Positions 37,057-59,932 of a stretch of 64,000 nucleotides of DNA are shown in pieces. The notes beneath the pieces are model-generated. The model made no database searches and had not been told where the DNA came from. It saw only the letters and a list, made by a program, of their open reading frames with translations. Source of the stretch: Pelosinus fermentans (GTDB lineage: Bacteria; Bacillota; Negativicutes; DSM-13327). How positions within the stretch are numbered: the first letter of the stretch is position 1; every line of letters starts with the position of its first letter. The position numbers were made by a program, and so were the translations under genes. Location of the stretch: the NCBI GenBank assembly GCA_002434245.1, contig DJJR01000031.1:98168-162167 (forward strand), in the 5' to 3' direction.

Positions 37057-38721
37057 TTAATTTCCGAGATCAAAATATACAAAAAAAGTGGTTCCTGCAT
37101 GACTGGTATTGATTTTAATAGTGGCATTATGCCTGTGGGCTATTTGGTAGCAGATGGGAAGTCCTAAACCTGTGCCTGTATCTTTCGTAGTAATAAATGG
37201 TGTTCCTAATTTATCAAGTATGTGGGAAGGAATTCCTGGGCCCTGATCACTAATAGATAAAACAACCTTGTGATCTTCTAAGAAGGTGTGAATATCCAAA
37301 TTGCCGCCGACTGGCATTGCTTCAATACTATTGCGTACTAAATTTAGCAGCAATTGACGAATTTCATTTTCATCCAGCAGCAATTCGGGAACTGGACTAA
37401 TGTCAAGATTTACAGATACTTTAGAAGCAGTGGCATCTGCTTGGATTAAGGGGAATAATGCTTCAATAATAGTGTTCAAAGAGCATTGTTTTAAAATCAC
37501 TAATTTTTCCCGGGACAAGGAAAGGTACTCACGAATAATAGCATTGGCTCGATCTATTTCCTCGATCATTAATTTGAATTTTTCTTTATCCTTTTGGTAT
37601 TCATGCTTTCTACCCATCACTTGTAAATAACCTCGTACTGTAGTCATGGGATTTCTAATTTCATGAGCGACAGTGGCAGCCATGCTGCCTACCATATTCA
37701 TCCTGTCAAATAAGGAGGACATTTGTTCTAATTTTTTTCGCAACGTTATATCACGAATGATTCCTTGTAAGGCTGAGAGCTGACCGGATTTATCATAAAT
37801 AGGAACACATTTTTGCTCAATCCATAGAATCGTTTTATCTTTTCGAACCAGGCGTAAAGTTAAAGGTAATTCAATAGAGTATGGTAGATTATAGATGAAA
37901 TCGTTAAACTGTGAATGGTCATCAGGATGTAGCAAATTGAAAATTAAATCGTTGTTGGCGTAAAATTCTTCGGAGGTATAGCCAGTGAACATTAACGCAG
38001 AAGGACTTATATACTCAATTCTGTTTTTAGGCAGTAGCTGATAAGAATAAATTACGTCAATAGCATTCTCGGCTAACAAACGATATTGAGTTTCTTTATT
38101 AATTAAATCTGCTCTAGTTTTCTCCAAATATACCATTAAAGTACCAGTCGCTATAAAGAGTCGTATTACTCCGCCAATAGTGTAAGCTAAAGGAAGAAAA
38201 CTTGAGCCGTTCATTAAAAAAGGTGAAGTGAAATTGATAAGACTCCATAGTATGTAGGCATAGCCGGTAATATAACGACCAATTCCCTGGAGTTGTAAAT
38301 TGCGTATATAAATTAAACCGACCCATATACCTATTAGGCAGCAGATGTAGATAGGTAGTAGTAATTTATAAACCAAAGAGGAAAAAAAGACGTTCAACCC
38401 AGCGCTTATAATGGAGAGCATAACCGTACCATATATCCACCATTTGTTAAATGGCTTATTCATAAAGCTATAGGTACCCCAGACAATCATCAGAACACTG
38501 ATAAAAATTAGCACTTGATATGCAGTTAAATAGAAGGTGGATTGTTTCCATTGTAGTAGTCCTGCATCAAAAAAAATATATCGTGAAAAAAGGATGAGCC
38601 AACTAATTACCCATATACCCATGTAGCGTTCACGATATAGTATATAGAGGTATATGAAGACTAGGACGAGCGAAATCGTTCCAATTGATGAACCCATTAA
38701 CGATAAGTGAATAATATCCAT
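37057..38721 (-). CDS. Membrane histidine kinase with PAS domain (paralog 1)
   Basis: The product (554 aa) has about seven N-terminal membrane helices (residues 10-210), a PAS domain (about 215-335: RLLAENAIDVIYSYQ ... LQGIIRDITLRKK) and a HisKA/HATPase module with HEIRNPMTTVRGYLQ, NLVRNSIEAMP, DQGPGIP and GTGLGLPI. The phosphoacceptor region resembles KinA-type sporulation kinases. No response regulator is adjacent. AGGAG precedes the start. It is closely similar to the kinase at 40521-42188, almost identical across the HisKA segment. Confidence 0.93.
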   Translation of the reverse strand: MDIIHLSLMGSSIGTISLVLVFIYLYILYRERYMGIWVISWLILFSRYIFFDAGLLQWKQSTFYLTAYQVLIFISVLMIVWGTYSFMNKPFNKWWIYGTVMLSIISAGLNVFFSSLVYKLLLPIYICCLIGIWVGLIYIRNLQLQGIGRYITGYAYILWSLINFTSPFLMNGSSFLPLAYTIGGVIRLFIATGTLMVYLEKTRADLINKETQYRLLAENAIDVIYSYQLLPKNRIEYISPSALMFTGYTSEEFYANNDLIFNLLHPDDHSQFNDFIYNLPYSIELPLTLRLVRKDKTILWIEQKCVPIYDKSGQLSALQGIIRDITLRKKLEQMSSLFDRMNMVGSMAATVAHEIRNPMTTVRGYLQVMGRKHEYQKDKEKFKLMIEEIDRANAIIREYLSLSREKLVILKQCSLNTIIEALFPLIQADATASKVSVNLDISPVPELLLDENEIRQLLLNLVRNSIEAMPVGGNLDIHTFLEDHKVVLSISDQGPGIPSHILDKLGTPFITTKDTGTGLGLPICYQIAHRHNATIKINTSHAGTTFFVYFDLGN

Positions 38722-38993
38722 GATTACTCCTGTATCAGCTATTGAATATACATAAATTACCTTTCTATAAAAAAAAAAACTTCCTTCTAGTAATTTAACA
38801 GTTTATGTAATAAATGATAATTATATGTCTTCTTAGGGGTTTTTTGGTAGAAAAGATTAATAGCTGGGATTTCCTAATCTGCGCAAAAAATAATAGTTCT
38901 ATATTTTAGTAACGAGGAAGGTTATTATCATAAGATATGTAGAATGATTTATAGACCACGTCATAAAAAAATATCAAAAGGATATAGTAAAAG
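38722..38993. other. Intergenic region upstream of kinase 1
   Basis: This AT-rich stretch must hold the kinase 1 promoter on the minus strand. AAAACTTCCTTCT near 38773-38788 also occurs upstream of the paralogous kinase (near 42247-42260), so the duplication includes the control region. A short plus-strand frame across 38944-39129 runs through a terminator and is not credible. Confidence 0.45.
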
Positions 38994-39045
38994 GAGGGGA
39001 AGTAACCTGAGGATAAGATCCTCTAGATTATTTCCCCTCTTTTTT
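38994..39045 (+). terminator. Strong terminator with its T-run on the plus strand
   Basis: GAGGGGAA-TAA with GAGGAT/ATCCTC inside forms a long stem ending in CCCCTC followed by six T on the plus strand. No plus-strand gene lies upstream. Read on the minus strand it has only CCTTTTAC, yet it may still end the acyltransferase transcript. Confidence 0.8.
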
Positions 39046-39129
39046 ATTATCTGGCCTCGTGGTCGTTATGATTTATTGATCACTTCAAGCAAGGCAGAAG
39101 AGTTATTGATGATTATTGTTACTTATTAA

Positions 39130-40287
39130 TCAACTTAATTTAATTAGACTTCTCATAGTTTGTACAATCTTATGGGCAATATCAGGCTGAGAGTGGAAAA
39201 AGCGTGGGAAAGCCATACCAGACAATACTAAGATTTGAGTAGAAGTAATTGCAGTAATATCCTCTGTATTTTTATTGTGTTCTGTTAAGCCATTTGTGCC
39301 GAAGTGTTGTCCAGATACGGTATATTCTTTAATAGGGTGATGAAAAGTCAGTGATTTTAGCTTTCCAGAAAGCAATATATTATAGGAATAGCTAATATCT
39401 CCTTGATTGGTAATGACATCTCCTGTATTGCATTGTACAAGAATGCCACAAGAATGAAGGAATTTTTTTGCTTCTGTTTCTGATAACCTATGAAGTATAG
39501 CGATTGCTTCCGTTGGCGGCTGATGCAAAAAGTTGCATACTATAGACCATAGTTGGTCTTCTGTAACGATTTGACTATTTATGATTGAAGAGCCTTTCGT
39601 AAATTTTTCATGAAACCACTCAACAGTTGGTGTAGTTACTTCTTTTCTTTTACGAGCGATACGAAAAAGGGGGGAACGTATTTTTCCAAAATGTTCAATA
39701 TCACCTCCAACCATAACAATAGGGACTAATAAACCATAACCAGGATCAAGAAAGTTTTTGCTATAACGGTGCCAGCCGATTTGTTCATAAAGTCGAAGTA
39801 AATGAAGATTGCAAGCACTAAAACCAAATTCTACTCCATTATCGCAAGAAAATTCATAGCATTTGGCTATGAGTAAATAGAGTGCTGGTGAACTGCGATG
39901 AGAGGGAGAGACCATTAATTTTGAAGCATAGGTAAATTGGCGATTGTAATTTTGGGTATTACTATTTAGAAAAGTATCCAAAGATAGAAACTTTACTAAA
40001 TTGGGAGGGAAATCCGCAAGCACTCCGATATTTACTCTCATAGTAGCAATTATATCTGAATTAATTCTTGCATAAAGTAAATAAGCCCATTCATCTAAGT
40101 CATCGTGTAATAACCTATTAGTATGATCTACATTATCTATTTGTTTGGACATTTCTTCTACGTAGGTTTGGTAACGAAAATGATAAATTTCCCTTTTTTC
40201 TTCTGGAGTAACAGCGATACCGACTCTGATTGAATTTTCTGAAGAGTCGGTGATATTTATTATTGACTTTGGATTACTAGTTGTCAT
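39130..40287 (-). CDS. Fusion of FeeM/autoinducer-synthase-like GNAT domain and cyclic-nucleotide-binding domain
   Basis: The product (385 aa) has an N-terminal acyltransferase-like domain (about 20-210) with FRYQTYVEEM, an acidic LLHDDLDEWAYLLYA and IATMRVN. This pattern recalls N-acyl amino acid synthases (FeeM) and LuxI-type synthases. Residues about 260-385 form a cNMP-binding-like beta roll (GDVITNQGD, NILLSGKLKSL, FGTNGLTEHN). It would make an acylated small molecule under nucleotide or other ligand control. GGAGGAGAG precedes the ATG. It lies between two paralogous sensor kinases on the same strand. Domain calls are from pattern memory; the product molecule is unknown. Confidence 0.7.
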   Translation of the reverse strand: MTTSNPKSIINITDSSENSIRVGIAVTPEEKREIYHFRYQTYVEEMSKQIDNVDHTNRLLHDDLDEWAYLLYARINSDIIATMRVNIGVLADFPPNLVKFLSLDTFLNSNTQNYNRQFTYASKLMVSPSHRSSPALYLLIAKCYEFSCDNGVEFGFSACNLHLLRLYEQIGWHRYSKNFLDPGYGLLVPIVMVGGDIEHFGKIRSPLFRIARKRKEVTTPTVEWFHEKFTKGSSIINSQIVTEDQLWSIVCNFLHQPPTEAIAILHRLSETEAKKFLHSCGILVQCNTGDVITNQGDISYSYNILLSGKLKSLTFHHPIKEYTVSGQHFGTNGLTEHNKNTEDITAITSTQILVLSGMAFPRFFHSQPDIAHKIVQTMRSLIKLS

Positions 40288-40455
40288 GTTTTTCTCTCCT
40301 CCATATTAGTTGTAGTAAGAATTTTGAATGTATAAGCCTTATAGGTTCATAACAATCACCCCCTTACTAGGGGATACGGAGAGAAGGGATTTTAATCCTT
40401 GTAGAAATGTGTAGGAATTACGGATAAAAAGTAGAACTATATATTTTTCTGAAAT

Positions 40456-40510
40456 AAAAAGAACCCTTTTTTAGGAGTTGGTTTTACTCACTAAAAAAGG
40501 GTTCTTAATA
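40456..40510 (-). terminator. Terminator after kinase 2
   Basis: AAGAACCCTTTTTTAG pairs with CTAAAAAAGGGTTCTT around a loop; on the minus strand it precedes the acyltransferase leader. Confidence 0.8.
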
Positions 40511-40520
40511 AATTAAAACT

Positions 40521-42188
40521 TTATGATACTTGTGGAGTGAAATAAACAAAAAAAGTAGTTCCTGCATGACTGGTACTGATTTTAATTGTAGCTTTGTGAC
40601 GATGGGCAATTTGATAGCAAATAGGAAGACCTAAGCCCGTACCTGTATCTTTGGTAGTGATAAAAGGTGTGCCCAGCTTGTCAAGTATATGATTAGGAAT
40701 TCCTTCTCCCTGATCACTAATAGCTAAAACAACTTTATAATCTTCCTGAAATGTGCGAATTAATAAATCACCGCCTGCAGGCATAGCCTCGATGCTATTA
40801 CGTACTAAATTCAATAACAATTGTCGTAGTTCATTTTCATCTAGTAATAACTCAGGAACCAATGCAAGATCAAGATTTACGTATACTTTTGAAGAAGTAG
40901 CATCTGCTTGAATTAAAGGGAATAATGCTTCTATTATACTGTTTAAAGAACATTGCTTTAAAATAACTAATTTTTCTCTCGATAAAGAAAGATATTCTCT
41001 GATAATGGAATTGGCTCTATCAATTTCTTCAAGCATTAAATTGAACTTATCTTTATCTTTTTGATATTCGTGTTTTCTTCCCATCACTTGTAAATAACCA
41101 CGCACCGTAGTCATAGGATTGCGAATTTCATGAGCAACAGTGGCAGCCATACTGCCGACCATATTCATCCGATCAAATAAGGAGGACATTTGCTCTAATT
41201 TCTTTCGCAAAGTTATATCGCGAATAATGCCTTGCAATGCTATGAGGCAACGGTTTTCGTTGTAAATGGGAACACATTTCTGTTCAATCCATAGAGTTGT
41301 GTTATCTTCTCGAACAAGACGTAATGTTAATGGTAGATCAATAGAGCAGGAAAGATTTGCAATAAAATCATTAAGTGTAGAAATATCCTCAGGGTGTATC
41401 AACTTTAATATTAAGCCATTGTTTGCATAATATTCTTCAGCGGAATATCCTGTGACCTTAAAAACAGATGGACTAATATATTCAAGTCTTTCTTCAGGAC
41501 AAAACTGATAAGAATAGATAATGTCAACGGCATTCTCAGCTAATAAACGATATTGAGTTTCCTTATTGATTAAATCGATTCTGGTCTTTTCAAAGTAAAC
41601 TACTAAAGTTCCGACTGCAATAGCTAAACGTAATATTCCACCTAATGTGTATCCCCAGGGAGCAAACCATGGGATAGTAAATGTAAAGGGCATTGTCAAA
41701 TTAAGAAGGCTCCATATGATGAAGGCATATCCTGTAATTAATCGACCAATTCCTTGTAATTTTAGATGATATATAAAGGTAATACCAATCCAAATACCTA
41801 TGACACAACAAATAAATACAGGAAGTAGCAATTTATATGCTAGAGATGAAAGCATAAAATTTAATATGGCACTTAAGATTAAGATACTACTAGTACCATA
41901 TAACCATTTCTTGCTAATTGGCTTGTTCATAAAGTTGTAAGTGCCCCATACGAAGAGTAGGGCGCTAAGAATAATTAGTATTTGGTATATAAGTATGCCT
42001 AAATTTGAATGTTGCCAAGAGAATATACCCGAATCTAGAAGGGCATACCTTGAGAGAAGAAAGAGCCAACTTATTGCCCATATGCCAATGTAGCGCTCAC
42101 GGTATATTATATATAAATAGATGTATATAAATACTACTAAAAGTGTTCCAATCAATGAACTTATTACTGATAAATGCACGTTATCCAT
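40521..42188 (-). CDS. Membrane histidine kinase with PAS domain (paralog 2)
   Basis: The product (555 aa) repeats the full architecture of the kinase at 37057-38721: seven-helix membrane sensor, PAS domain, HisKA with HEIRNPMTTVRGYLQ, and HATPase with NLVRNSIEAMP and GTGLGLPI. The catalytic half is nearly identical to paralog 1, while the membrane sensor has diverged more, suggesting the same downstream partner but a different or tuned input. AGGAGTAACT precedes the ATG. No response regulator is adjacent. Confidence 0.93.
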   Translation of the reverse strand: MDNVHLSVISSLIGTLLVVFIYIYLYIIYRERYIGIWAISWLFLLSRYALLDSGIFSWQHSNLGILIYQILIILSALLFVWGTYNFMNKPISKKWLYGTSSILILSAILNFMLSSLAYKLLLPVFICCVIGIWIGITFIYHLKLQGIGRLITGYAFIIWSLLNLTMPFTFTIPWFAPWGYTLGGILRLAIAVGTLVVYFEKTRIDLINKETQYRLLAENAVDIIYSYQFCPEERLEYISPSVFKVTGYSAEEYYANNGLILKLIHPEDISTLNDFIANLSCSIDLPLTLRLVREDNTTLWIEQKCVPIYNENRCLIALQGIIRDITLRKKLEQMSSLFDRMNMVGSMAATVAHEIRNPMTTVRGYLQVMGRKHEYQKDKDKFNLMLEEIDRANSIIREYLSLSREKLVILKQCSLNSIIEALFPLIQADATSSKVYVNLDLALVPELLLDENELRQLLLNLVRNSIEAMPAGGDLLIRTFQEDYKVVLAISDQGEGIPNHILDKLGTPFITTKDTGTGLGLPICYQIAHRHKATIKISTSHAGTTFFVYFTPQVS

Positions 42189-57495: not shown

Positions 57496-57784
57496 GATAA
57501 CACTTCCCTTACATTTTAAGCATTCTAGTACCTCATCTGCGTTAAAACTATAGATAATTTAGCGAGGATTTTTTTGACCTGCAAGGCAGCGACAACAAAG
57601 CATGACGGAAAAAGAATGCTAAAGTGGCAGCGCTTTTAATGCAGAGAAGGTACTAGGCTGTTTATAGTATGAAAGAACGGAGAATATGGTACATAGCAGA
57701 CCGCCCAAATTGAGAGATTCTATTATTTTTTTAACGAAGTAAAAGGAATTTGAGGAAAAATGTCGAAAAATAGAAGAAAATACC
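57496..57784. repeat. Intergenic region with a 23-base inverted repeat
   Basis: Arms at 57525-57547 (CTAGTACCTCATCTGCGTTA...) and 57634-57656 match as complements at 20 of 23 bases, enclosing about 86 bases. A second nested pair (AGCATTCT and AGAATGCT) is also present. It may be a relic of a small mobile element. No open frame is credible. Confidence 0.5.
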
Positions 57785-57864
57785 ATAATGAGCAAACCGG
57801 CCTAAAGGTGGGGACGCAAAGCCATGGGTCTAAGGATGTTACATCTATGATTGCCAAGTTGCAT
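57785..57864 (+). ncRNA. Cyclic di-GMP-I (GEMM) riboswitch aptamer
   Basis: GCAAACCGGCCTAAAGGTGG, GGACGCAAAGCC, ATGGGTC and a closing ATGATTGCC follow the GEMM-I consensus in order and spacing. It lies upstream of a chemoreceptor gene, a very common target of this class. Confidence 0.93.
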
Positions 57865-57901
57865 CGTTTGTTGATTATGATGTAACTTGGCAATCTTTTA
57901 T
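57849..57901 (+). terminator. Expression-platform terminator of the c-di-GMP riboswitch
   Basis: GATTGCCAAGTTGCATC pairs with GATGTAACTTGGCAATC, followed by TTTTA. Its 5' arm overlaps the 3' end of the aptamer. Confidence 0.88.
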
Positions 57902-57964: not shown

Positions 57965-59932
57965 ATGAAATTAAAAATGAAATTTTTAATGATGGTGGCG
58001 ATTACGAGTCTGGTCTTATTAGTAGCTACGACGATGGGGTATTTTTATGCGAAAAGTCAGGTAGAGGAAAATATTAAGAATGAAATGTTCTCAGTTGCCA
58101 ATACCTATTCAACTCAATTAGACGGCTGGTTATTGGCGAAGGCGCAAACCGCAGTGACAACAAGTGAGAATATTCGAGTTGTGTTAGGTGACAAGGAAAT
58201 CCCGGTTTCTTTTGTACAAAACTACAAAGCAGATTCTAGTTTACTGGATCTATATGCCGGATTAGAAGATGGTAAAATGATTGATGGTTCAGGAACGACA
58301 CTGCCTGAAGGGTATGATCCCCGTAAGCGTGGGTGGTATCAGCAAACAAAAGAGAAAAATAAACTAATCTTTACGGATGCATATGTTGATGCATTTACCA
58401 AAAAATATATTGTGTCCGCAGGGGTACCATTAAAAAATGAAGCAGGAAATTTTCGCGGTGTTGTTGGGATTGATATAGCCCTGGATTTACTGAGTGAAAA
58501 GATCAAAGACGTTAAGGTAAATGAAAAAGGGTATGGCACCATTATTGATCAGCAGGGGATTATTTTAGCTCATCCGGATGCTGCCCAAGTTTCAAAGAAC
58601 ATTCATGAAGATCCTGTATTGCAAAAATTTGCAAAAGAAATGCTCGCCCAGGATAAAGGTATGCAAACCTATGAGGTAAACGGAGCAGAAAAGTTAATGA
58701 TTTATACCAAGATTCCTGCTACTGGCTGGACAATGGGGATCACCGTTGACGTAAAAGATGTGTATGGTCAGGTCACGGCTTTAGGATATCAATTTGGACT
58801 AACTGCTTTGCTTGGCATCTTATTGTCAGCGGCTGCTTCTTGGAGATTGTCTAGTGGAATCACCAAGAATATTGCAATCTTATCTCAATCTGCACAACGT
58901 CTGGCTGGAGGAGATCTTTCGGAACAAAACCTTACAATTCAGACAAAGGATGAGATTGGCCAACTTGCTGCAGATTTTTCTACTATGGCAGAAAATCTGC
59001 GTAATCTAATTAGGGCGATCGCTCAAACCGCAGAACATGTAGCTGCTTCATCAGAAGAACTTACAGCCAGCGCAGAACAATCTGCCCATGCATCTACTCA
59101 AGTGGCTGCCTCAATTACGGAGGTAGCACAGGGGGCGGAATTGCAGCTGCAAGCAATCAATGGAACTTCTGCGGCTGTTGAGGATATGTCGGCAAGTATA
59201 CAGTGCGTTGTCACAAATGCTGCAACCGTTAATGTGACTTCAGAAGAGGCTGCAGCGGCTGCAGGCCAGGGAAGTAAAGCCGTTTTCAATGCTGTAAACC
59301 AAATGAACATTATTGAGAAAACGATTTCAGGATCTGCAGGAGTCGTAGTCAAGTTAGGGGAACGATCAAAAGAGATTGGACAAATTGTAGATACTATTTC
59401 AGGAATTGCAGGGCAAACTAACTTGCTGGCCTTAAATGCGGCTATTGAGGCGGCACGTGCTGGTGAACAAGGACGGGGATTTGCTGTTGTAGCAGAAGAA
59501 GTGCGGAAATTAGCAGAACAATCCCAGCAGGCGGCTAAAAAAATTGCGGATATGATTAATGAAATTCAAGCAGATACAGATGAAGCTGTAGTAACGATGA
59601 AGGATGGGACAAGAGAAGTTGGGATTGGCAATGAAGTTGTAAGCGCTGCAGGTGCAGCTTTTAAACAGATTGAATTGCTTATTGGTCAGGTAGCCAGTCA
59701 AGTATATCAGATAACCGATTCCATCGGACAAATGAAGACTGGCAGTCAAAGAATTGTTACTGCTGTACAGGATATTGAAAGTATTATGAAAAATACTTCT
59801 GGCGAAACACAAAGCATCTCAGCAGCGACAGAAGAGCAGTCAGCATCCATGCAGGAAATCGCTTCTTCCAGTCATGCATTAGCTGACATGGCAGCAGAAT
59901 TGCAACAAGAAATTAGGAAGTTCTCCATATAA
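57965..59932 (+). CDS. Methyl-accepting chemotaxis protein with dCache sensor
   Basis: The product (655 aa) has an N-terminal membrane helix (about 7-27), an extracytoplasmic dCache domain (DPRKRGWYQQTKEKN, SAGVPLKNEAGNFRGVVGID), a second helix (about 275-297), HAMP, and a cytoplasmic signalling hairpin with the invariant tip IAGQTNLLALNAAIEAARAG. It senses small extracellular ligands and signals to CheA. GAGAGGAGAGGG precedes the ATG. Expression is set by the c-di-GMP riboswitch upstream. Confidence 0.95.
   Translation: MKLKMKFLMMVAITSLVLLVATTMGYFYAKSQVEENIKNEMFSVANTYSTQLDGWLLAKAQTAVTTSENIRVVLGDKEIPVSFVQNYKADSSLLDLYAGLEDGKMIDGSGTTLPEGYDPRKRGWYQQTKEKNKLIFTDAYVDAFTKKYIVSAGVPLKNEAGNFRGVVGIDIALDLLSEKIKDVKVNEKGYGTIIDQQGIILAHPDAAQVSKNIHEDPVLQKFAKEMLAQDKGMQTYEVNGAEKLMIYTKIPATGWTMGITVDVKDVYGQVTALGYQFGLTALLGILLSAAASWRLSSGITKNIAILSQSAQRLAGGDLSEQNLTIQTKDEIGQLAADFSTMAENLRNLIRAIAQTAEHVAASSEELTASAEQSAHASTQVAASITEVAQGAELQLQAINGTSAAVEDMSASIQCVVTNAATVNVTSEEAAAAAGQGSKAVFNAVNQMNIIEKTISGSAGVVVKLGERSKEIGQIVDTISGIAGQTNLLALNAAIEAARAGEQGRGFAVVAEEVRKLAEQSQQAAKKIADMINEIQADTDEAVVTMKDGTREVGIGNEVVSAAGAAFKQIELLIGQVASQVYQITDSIGQMKTGSQRIVTAVQDIESIMKNTSGETQSISAATEEQSASMQEIASSSHALADMAAELQQEIRKFSI

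Follow-up and report, generated by a model that had tools for sequence, protein, structure and literature searches.

What is a gene that fuses an acyl-synthase-like domain to a cyclic-nucleotide-binding (CNB)-like domain doing between two paralogous sensor kinases? The question arises in a 64,000-nucleotide stretch of Pelosinus fermentans DNA (the window; contig DJJR01000031.1, positions 98,168 to 162,167), in which three minus-strand genes encode the sensor histidine kinase K1 (40521-42188, 555 amino acids), the fusion protein F (39130-40287, 385 amino acids), and a paralogous sensor kinase, K2 (37057-38721, 554 amino acids). All three were identified as open reading frames (ORFs) with Pfam matches, and F also by homologue search. 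An initial annotation of this DNA had proposed the order kinase 2, fusion, kinase 1 on the minus strand, and the ORFs reproduce that order and its coordinates exactly. The reading we favour, at a probability of roughly 0.6, is of a signalling pair in which F is the synthase and K1 the receptor, both with alleles that differ between strains.

The fusion gene is inherited with a sensor kinase

We surveyed 300 genomes of the class Negativicutes. F was carried by 44 of them in 82 copies (1-4 per genome), and 81 of these copies lie, by coordinates, within 2.5 kb of a protein with a K1-type sensor; the one other copy is cut off where its contig stops. Seen from the other side, 84 of 103 sensor copies stand beside an F. 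Conserved linkage to the kinase family, which the initial annotation had named as a check on its proposal, is therefore what the survey found. The ORF caller recovered 80 of the 82 copies, and counts out of 80 exclude two fusions, at L160 and L162. A single HisKA-type kinase lies upstream on the same strand in 66 of the 80, kinases flank F on both sides in three (the window, L096, and L132), the kinase is divergent in four, a different kinase type is present in six, and one copy, at a contig end, has none. A same-strand kinase just 5' of F, the position of K1, was observed in 69/80 copies. The association of F with a kinase is thus general, while the two-sided arrangement from which it was first proposed belongs to a minority.

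The kinase and F are a module, inherited as a pair. Over 72 pairs, sensor distances and GNAT distances correlated at r = 0.778; when partners were shuffled within genomes 2000 times, the mean r was 0.258 and the maximum 0.587, and 0/2000 shuffles reached 0.778. No description of a kinase-F module was found in titles and abstract openings of the literature; as subscription journals were thinly covered, this argues only weakly that none exists.

The K1 sensor and the GNAT domain diverge together

L096 is the locus orthologous to the window in a close relative, and we compared the two domain by domain, with pS denoting silent-site divergence. Two domains were highly divergent: the seven-helix membrane sensor of K1 (residues 1-205, 41574-42188, minus strand, delimited with AlphaFold2), at 69% identity and pS 0.61, and the FeeM/LuxI-like GNAT domain of F (residues 17-216, 39640-40239, minus strand, delimited by structural match), at 66% and pS 0.57. 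The K1 PAS domain was at 78% (pS 0.47), the K1 core at 95% (0.28), the CNB-like domain of F at 85% (0.21), K2 at 95% (0.18), and HtpG at 99% (0.12). Seven flanking genes were 92-99% identical and, with K2, had pS values of 0.04-0.21; the flank median over eight genes was 96% identity and pS 0.15. LysR, split into two ORFs in L096, was compared over the longer one. Between L109 and L110, the kinase and F were the sole genes clearly raised among the 16 compared, and the adjacent radical-SAM gene was 95% identical (pS 0.20). Between L102 and L103, the kinase and F were outliers among 15 genes, with the kinase core raised too.

From 20 close pairs of loci, we kept the 13 with at least five flanking genes and a flank pS of at most 0.19; the other seven were set aside, either for having 0, 1, or 3 flanking genes or because the flank had itself diverged. 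Sensor and GNAT agreed in 13/13 kept pairs, both being diverged in five and both not in eight. The excess pS of the sensor and the GNAT correlated at 0.97, the highest of all domain pairs, compared with 0.89 for the GNAT and the kinase core and 0.75 for the GNAT and its own CNB-like domain. Since silent divergence is raised along with protein divergence, the alignments indicate that whole DNA segments at K1 and F were exchanged rather than mutated in place. Such strain-specific co-variation of putative synthase and sensor resembles the pherotypes of ComQXPA. The window's genome has a second kinase-F module, L054, whose F is 50% identical to the window F; unlike in the window module, both of its genes are conserved, at 96-99%, in a relative (L105).

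F has an acyl-synthase fold without the expected catalytic residue

F matched Acetyltransf_5 above the Pfam cut-off (1e-7) and FeeM slightly below it (5e-6, 26.8 bits against a cut-off of 27). When residues 17-216 were compared with known structures, FeeM (2g0b) came first, and TofI, LasI, RpaI, and BjaI were high in the lists. The homologue search returned 191 proteins at E <= 1e-3, and a wide F-family profile searched by sequence against the PDB retrieved BjaI first (8.6e-8), then RpaI (1.3e-4). There was also a weak match to the NCBIfam ornithine acyltransferase (24.8 bits against a cut-off of 350). F was scored for an N-terminal R-x3-F/Y, D-x2-D, and R pattern, which we take to be a LuxI feature: among the 78 copies having a residue, R38, D65, and R84 are present in all, position 62 is Asp in 75 and Glu in three, and position 42 is Tyr in 67.

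The catalytic Glu of FeeM-type synthases was shown by mutation as E103 of Nas354, as described in PMC4897644. Its equivalents are E95 of FeeM and the Glu of E-x-S-R in LuxI. In our alignment, which was to BjaI and RpaI rather than to FeeM, this residue falls at F position 120, where 0/79 copies having a residue carry Glu; the replacements in the family are mostly Y, F, L, or V. Because the catalytic Glu is missing, FeeM/LuxI chemistry cannot be assumed for F. The initial description of F as a FeeM/LuxI-like GNAT joined to a CNB-like domain is borne out by Pfam and by the predicted structure, which matches acyl-synthase GNATs; as a claim about an acyl synthase, it stands for the fold and the nearest structures and does not extend to the catalytic residue. 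F is modelled as an acyl-synthase GNAT fold, as a candidate rather than an assigned member of the LuxI/FeeM family.

The CNB-like domain (residues 285-365, 39193-39435, minus strand) matched cNMP_binding (PF00027) above the cut-off at 2e-6, and 28/28 F-family members scanned gave a match at E <= 0.01. The domain assignment therefore holds, but the phosphate-binding cassette is non-canonical, with T331 in place of the canonical Glu and N340 in place of the canonical Arg. In 70/80 Negativicute copies, position 340 is His (52) or Gln (18). Arg occurs there in 1/54 copies without a radical-SAM neighbour, lies outside the five commonest residues (covering 24/26) in the 26 copies with one, and is found in 9/10 GNAT-CNB relatives from other phyla. 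Glu at position 331 is present in 13/54, 3/26, and 8/10 of the same groups. These statements rest on sequence because residues 296-341 were modelled at low confidence. With the cassette Arg replaced, ordinary cyclic-nucleotide (cNMP) binding by Negativicute F is unlikely, and the relatives from other phyla may be true cNMP-responsive enzymes. In one of the latter loci (L032, Burkholderiales), the neighbours of the GNAT-CNB gene include a TPR-CHAT gene, a methyltransferase, and a CHASE2-cyclase; in another (L031, Rhodospirillales), a LuxR-type response regulator and a MASE1 sensor kinase come after it on the other strand.

K1 appears to be the cognate receptor

Both kinases matched PAS_3, HisKA, and HATPase_c in Pfam, and among NCBIfam models their cores matched AtoS best and KinD second, both far below the model cut-offs. 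The conserved output part of K1 includes its HisKA domain (residues 345-404, 40977-41156, minus strand, by Pfam), with the H-box HEIRNP. The N-terminal ~205 amino acids of either kinase matched no Pfam family above the cut-off. In K1, this region has about seven hydrophobic segments by hydropathy and seven helices by AlphaFold2 (predicted local distance difference test score, pLDDT, 86); the fold gave no significant match in the PDB, the best (E 0.09) being assorted seven-helix receptors, which we leave uninterpreted. The membrane sensor, PAS, and HisKA regions that the kinases had been said to share were all recovered by these methods. Identity between K1 and K2 is lowest in the sensor (58%) and highest in the HisKA region (94%), a pattern suggesting that the two receive different inputs but share an output.

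The initial annotation had the signal sensed by one or both kinases, and the comparison with L096 favours K1 and not K2. The K2 sensor is 94% identical to its ortholog, compared with 69% for the K1 sensor, which diverges in step with the GNAT. In L096, the K2 ortholog comes after F, as in the window, while elsewhere in the genus F is directly followed by htpG (L097, L098, L099, and L104) or by another gene (L102 and L103). Because the K1 sensor tracks the GNAT and K2 is often not beside F, K1 rather than K2 appears to be the partner of F. K2 would be a duplicate older than the split from L096, kept conserved, and perhaps a second input to the same output. Copies of the seven-helix sensor that lack an F are possible eavesdroppers or separate inputs.

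As initially noted, no response regulator lies nearby (0/10 neighbouring genes examined), and no LuxR-type gene was found among these neighbours. It is because of this lack that we propose the Spo0A system as the most likely output of K1. Clostridial orphan kinases can phosphorylate Spo0A directly, as described in PMC11210211 and PMC3533761. Spo0A (Spo0A_C) was detected in 42/44 F-carrier genomes compared with 14/256 others, and the two carriers without it are incomplete genomes, at 85% and, for the window's own (82 contigs), 83.5%.

Modules with a radical-SAM gene or a response regulator

In 26/80 copies, F is closely followed by a gene for a ~580-amino-acid B12-binding radical-SAM-type protein. 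Two such proteins were scanned with Pfam; a B12-binding domain was present in both, and in one the Radical_SAM model was passed as well. Across the 300 genomes, at least 27 homologues were found at E <= 1e-20, of which 26 adjoin F; because scoring stopped at four candidates in most of the genomes, 27 is possibly a lower bound. None was found in the window's own genome. The presence of this gene after F suggests small-molecule tailoring. The usual Cys spacing of radical-SAM proteins is C-x3-C-x2-C; C-x4-C-x2-C was observed at L129 (6227-7987), L157 (6188-7939), and L109 (9148-10875). A defence system was considered and rejected, as PADLOC matched neither F nor K1 and hit the radical-SAM protein once, weakly (4.5e-5).

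Where the kinase is of the other type (six copies), a REC-AraC response regulator gene lies near five, and the sixth is at a contig end. A receiver-like gene of any kind occurs within 4 kb of F in 11/80 copies, these five included. L143 (6669-7073) and L144 (9990-10394) each have a 134-amino-acid receiver-like protein ~0.9 kb from F, possibly a single-domain relay protein.

The leader between K1 and F

The minus-strand interval between K1 and F contains an inverted repeat, GAACCCTTTTTTAG/CTAAAAAAGGGTTC, followed by a T-rich run (40461-40504), which we read in the sequence as a probable terminator after K1. It does not appear in the terminator scan, for which the loop limit was 8, and a similar repeat was seen by eye in most of 17 aligned relatives. 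Alignment also revealed a conserved upstream element, CAAGGATT-N14-CCGTAT (40374-40401), a possible promoter from its pattern alone, and an extended Shine-Dalgarno sequence, AGGGGGTGAT (40355-40364), 5' of a mini-ORF, ATG AAC CTA TAA (Met-Asn-Leu-stop; 40339-40350). In the window's genome, GGNGGTGATAGTTATGA with one mismatch allowed is confined to the two kinase-F modules, and the reversed control pattern occurs once.

The Shine-Dalgarno motif, under a matching rule fixed after the first alignment had been inspected, is present in 57/80 leaders and not in 23, and an ATG ORF of exactly three codons is present in 33/80. The two together were found in the leaders of L054 and L096-L174. Among 31 distinct versions of the mini-ORF, 13 encode Met-Lys-Thr, using all four Thr and both Lys codons; since codons vary synonymously, selection seems to act on the tiny peptide or on its being translated. 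We read the element as a putative translation or mRNA-stability leader. No Rfam element was found in it at the gathering threshold. A hairpin around the Shine-Dalgarno sequence proved too weak (mean stem score 8.3 compared with 7.3 for upstream-shuffled sequence, 57 leaders), and its 3' arm is under constraint from the Shine-Dalgarno sequence. A wider regulon sharing the leader was also rejected, with one further match to the upstream element and no further match to the Shine-Dalgarno element in the window's genome. The single Rfam hit in the window is elsewhere, a c-di-GMP-I riboswitch (57781-57866, plus strand, 64.8 bits) that lies ~100 bases 5' of a 655-amino-acid ORF (57965-59932).

Interpretation and alternative explanations

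In the mechanism we propose, the GNAT domain of F would make or finish a small acylated molecule from an acyl thioester, with the CNB-like domain probably regulating F other than by ordinary cyclic-nucleotide binding. The released product would be bound by the seven-helix sensor of K1, with a specificity that differs between strains in the manner of pherotype alleles. The conserved HisKA core of K1 would then relay the signal, with the Spo0A system its most probable target; modules with a local regulator would feed that regulator, and those without one Spo0A. Such a pair would operate in the manner of established synthase-kinase quorum-sensing systems. Relative to the synthase-receptor idea as first put forward, the co-divergence, the radical-SAM subset, and the response-regulator subtype strengthen it, K2 becomes the less likely partner, and FeeM/LuxI chemistry cannot be assumed. 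The diffusible or membrane lipid signal that the initial annotation had F make is a conjectural product. Taken further, and here we are tentative, with odds somewhat short of even, the modules could be a class of cell-cell signalling by small molecules that has so far gone unrecognised in Negativicutes that form spores. A GNAT-CNB synthase lacking the catalytic Glu and the cassette Arg would make a strain-specific acyl signal, sometimes tailored by the B12-radical-SAM enzyme, that is read in pherotype-like allele groups by a seven-helix kinase feeding Spo0A or an AraC-type regulator.

Several observations weigh against this reading. For 19 of the 103 sensor copies, F is missing from the 2.5 kb around them, and four of their genomes lack F altogether. 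Beyond the kinase-F pair, no gene family recurs in more than five of 22 clustered loci, which leaves F in these loci with neither an exporter nor an acyl-carrier gene as a conserved neighbour. Special long-range co-evolution of sensor and GNAT was not seen over the 72 pairs, where GNAT distances correlate equally with the kinase core (0.783, compared with 0.778 for the sensor), and the nearest neighbour by GNAT is also the nearest by sensor for 44/72 modules only. The 13 close pairs are not independent, and because the five diverged ones come from three loci in one genus, independent cases of co-divergence are few; the kinase core is also raised in four of the five. The absent catalytic Glu belongs here as well. 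The tie to sporulation that the initial annotation drew has Spo0A co-occurrence as its one support, which is confounded by lineage, and no Spo0A was detected in the window's own incomplete genome.

Three other explanations could account for parts of these data. F could be an intracellular partner of K1, with its GNAT acylating K1 or binding the sensor or PAS domain, so that no small-molecule signal exists and the co-divergence marks a protein-protein interface. The near-strict linkage (81/82), the diverged K1 PAS domain, the missing catalytic Glu, and the mycobacterial cAMP-regulated protein acetyltransferases, which combine CNB and GNAT domains, all fit this, but the most divergent part of K1 is embedded in the membrane, the PDB entries closest in sequence are acyl synthases that make small molecules, and the radical-SAM gene suggests tailoring of a small molecule; we regard it as unlikely. 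Slightly less likely still, in our view, is that the product of F is a membrane aminolipid or another part of the envelope, and that the kinase does not serve communication but senses this lipid in its own cell to report on envelope state or stress. In its favour, FeeM/OlsB-like relatives make acylated amino acids (compare the weak ornithine acyltransferase match), the accessory enzyme gives a match, though one far short of the cut-off, to a B12-radical-SAM model labelled 'lipid biosynthesis', and envelope genes are among some neighbours. Against it, a housekeeping lipid would not be expected to have an enzyme and a sensor that co-diverge strain by strain, and genomes carry 1-4 F copies with matched partners.

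The divergence of K1 and F might also mark a place where neutral recombination or gene import is frequent, and so be uninformative on function. The exchange of whole DNA segments and the restriction of divergence to one genus among the pairs compared are in keeping with this. Between the window and L096, however, the peaks coincide with the N-terminal domains of two genes and divergence is lower in the intervening kinase core, in the CNB-like domain, and in K2, while at L109/L110 the adjacent radical-SAM gene is conserved, and we consider this explanation very improbable. If the synthase-receptor reading is correct, anaerobic spore-forming Negativicutes (Pelosinus, Sporomusa, Propionispora) would have a non-peptide communication system, possibly timing sporulation. 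It would bring with it an acyl-synthase-like GNAT in which the catalytic residue is not the one expected, and a family of receptor kinases with seven-helix sensors that Pfam does not name. The branch associated with radical-SAM genes would probably yield a new metabolite. The genetics point to a signal-making and a signal-reading domain, so specificity is testable by domain exchange.

Comparison with known systems

The LuxI-family acyl-homoserine lactone (acyl-HSL) synthases (BjaI, RpaI, LasI, TofI, MesI) differ from F in the Glu of E-x-S-R, which is replaced in F, and in the LuxR-type gene, which is absent among the window neighbours examined. Nas343 and Nas354 likewise have a FeeM-like N-terminal GNAT followed by a second-messenger-type domain, as described in PMC4897644. 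Their C-terminal domain is c-di-GMP-binding-like, whereas F has a CNB-like domain, no catalytic Glu, and a kinase partner. KinA-E and the clostridial orphan sporulation kinases share with K1 the PAS-HisKA-HATPase organisation and, in the window, the lack of an adjacent regulator, with KinD the second NCBIfam match; K1 differs in its seven-helix sensor without a Pfam match above the cut-off and in its dedicated partner gene. The mycobacterial cAMP-dependent acetyltransferases hold CNB and GNAT domains in one protein in the reverse order and act on protein lysine, and the cNMP cassette Arg is absent in F.

LuxM-LuxN and AinS-AinR pair an acyl-HSL synthase with a membrane receptor, LuxN being a multi-helix histidine kinase, as described in PMC5007282. 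LuxM and AinS are not LuxI-type and LuxN has nine predicted helices; the comparison with F and K1 is by description, not by sequence. We know of no CNB domain in either system. ComQXPA of Bacillus differs in its enzyme, ComQ, an isoprenyl transferase whose substrate is the ComX peptide, whereas F is a GNAT with no peptide gene identified, and in that ComA is encoded beside ComP. It is similar to the kinase-F module in placing a modifying enzyme beside a membrane histidine kinase, ComP, whose N-terminus is variable and whose cytoplasmic part is conserved, with strain-specific pherotypes, as described in PMC4008528.

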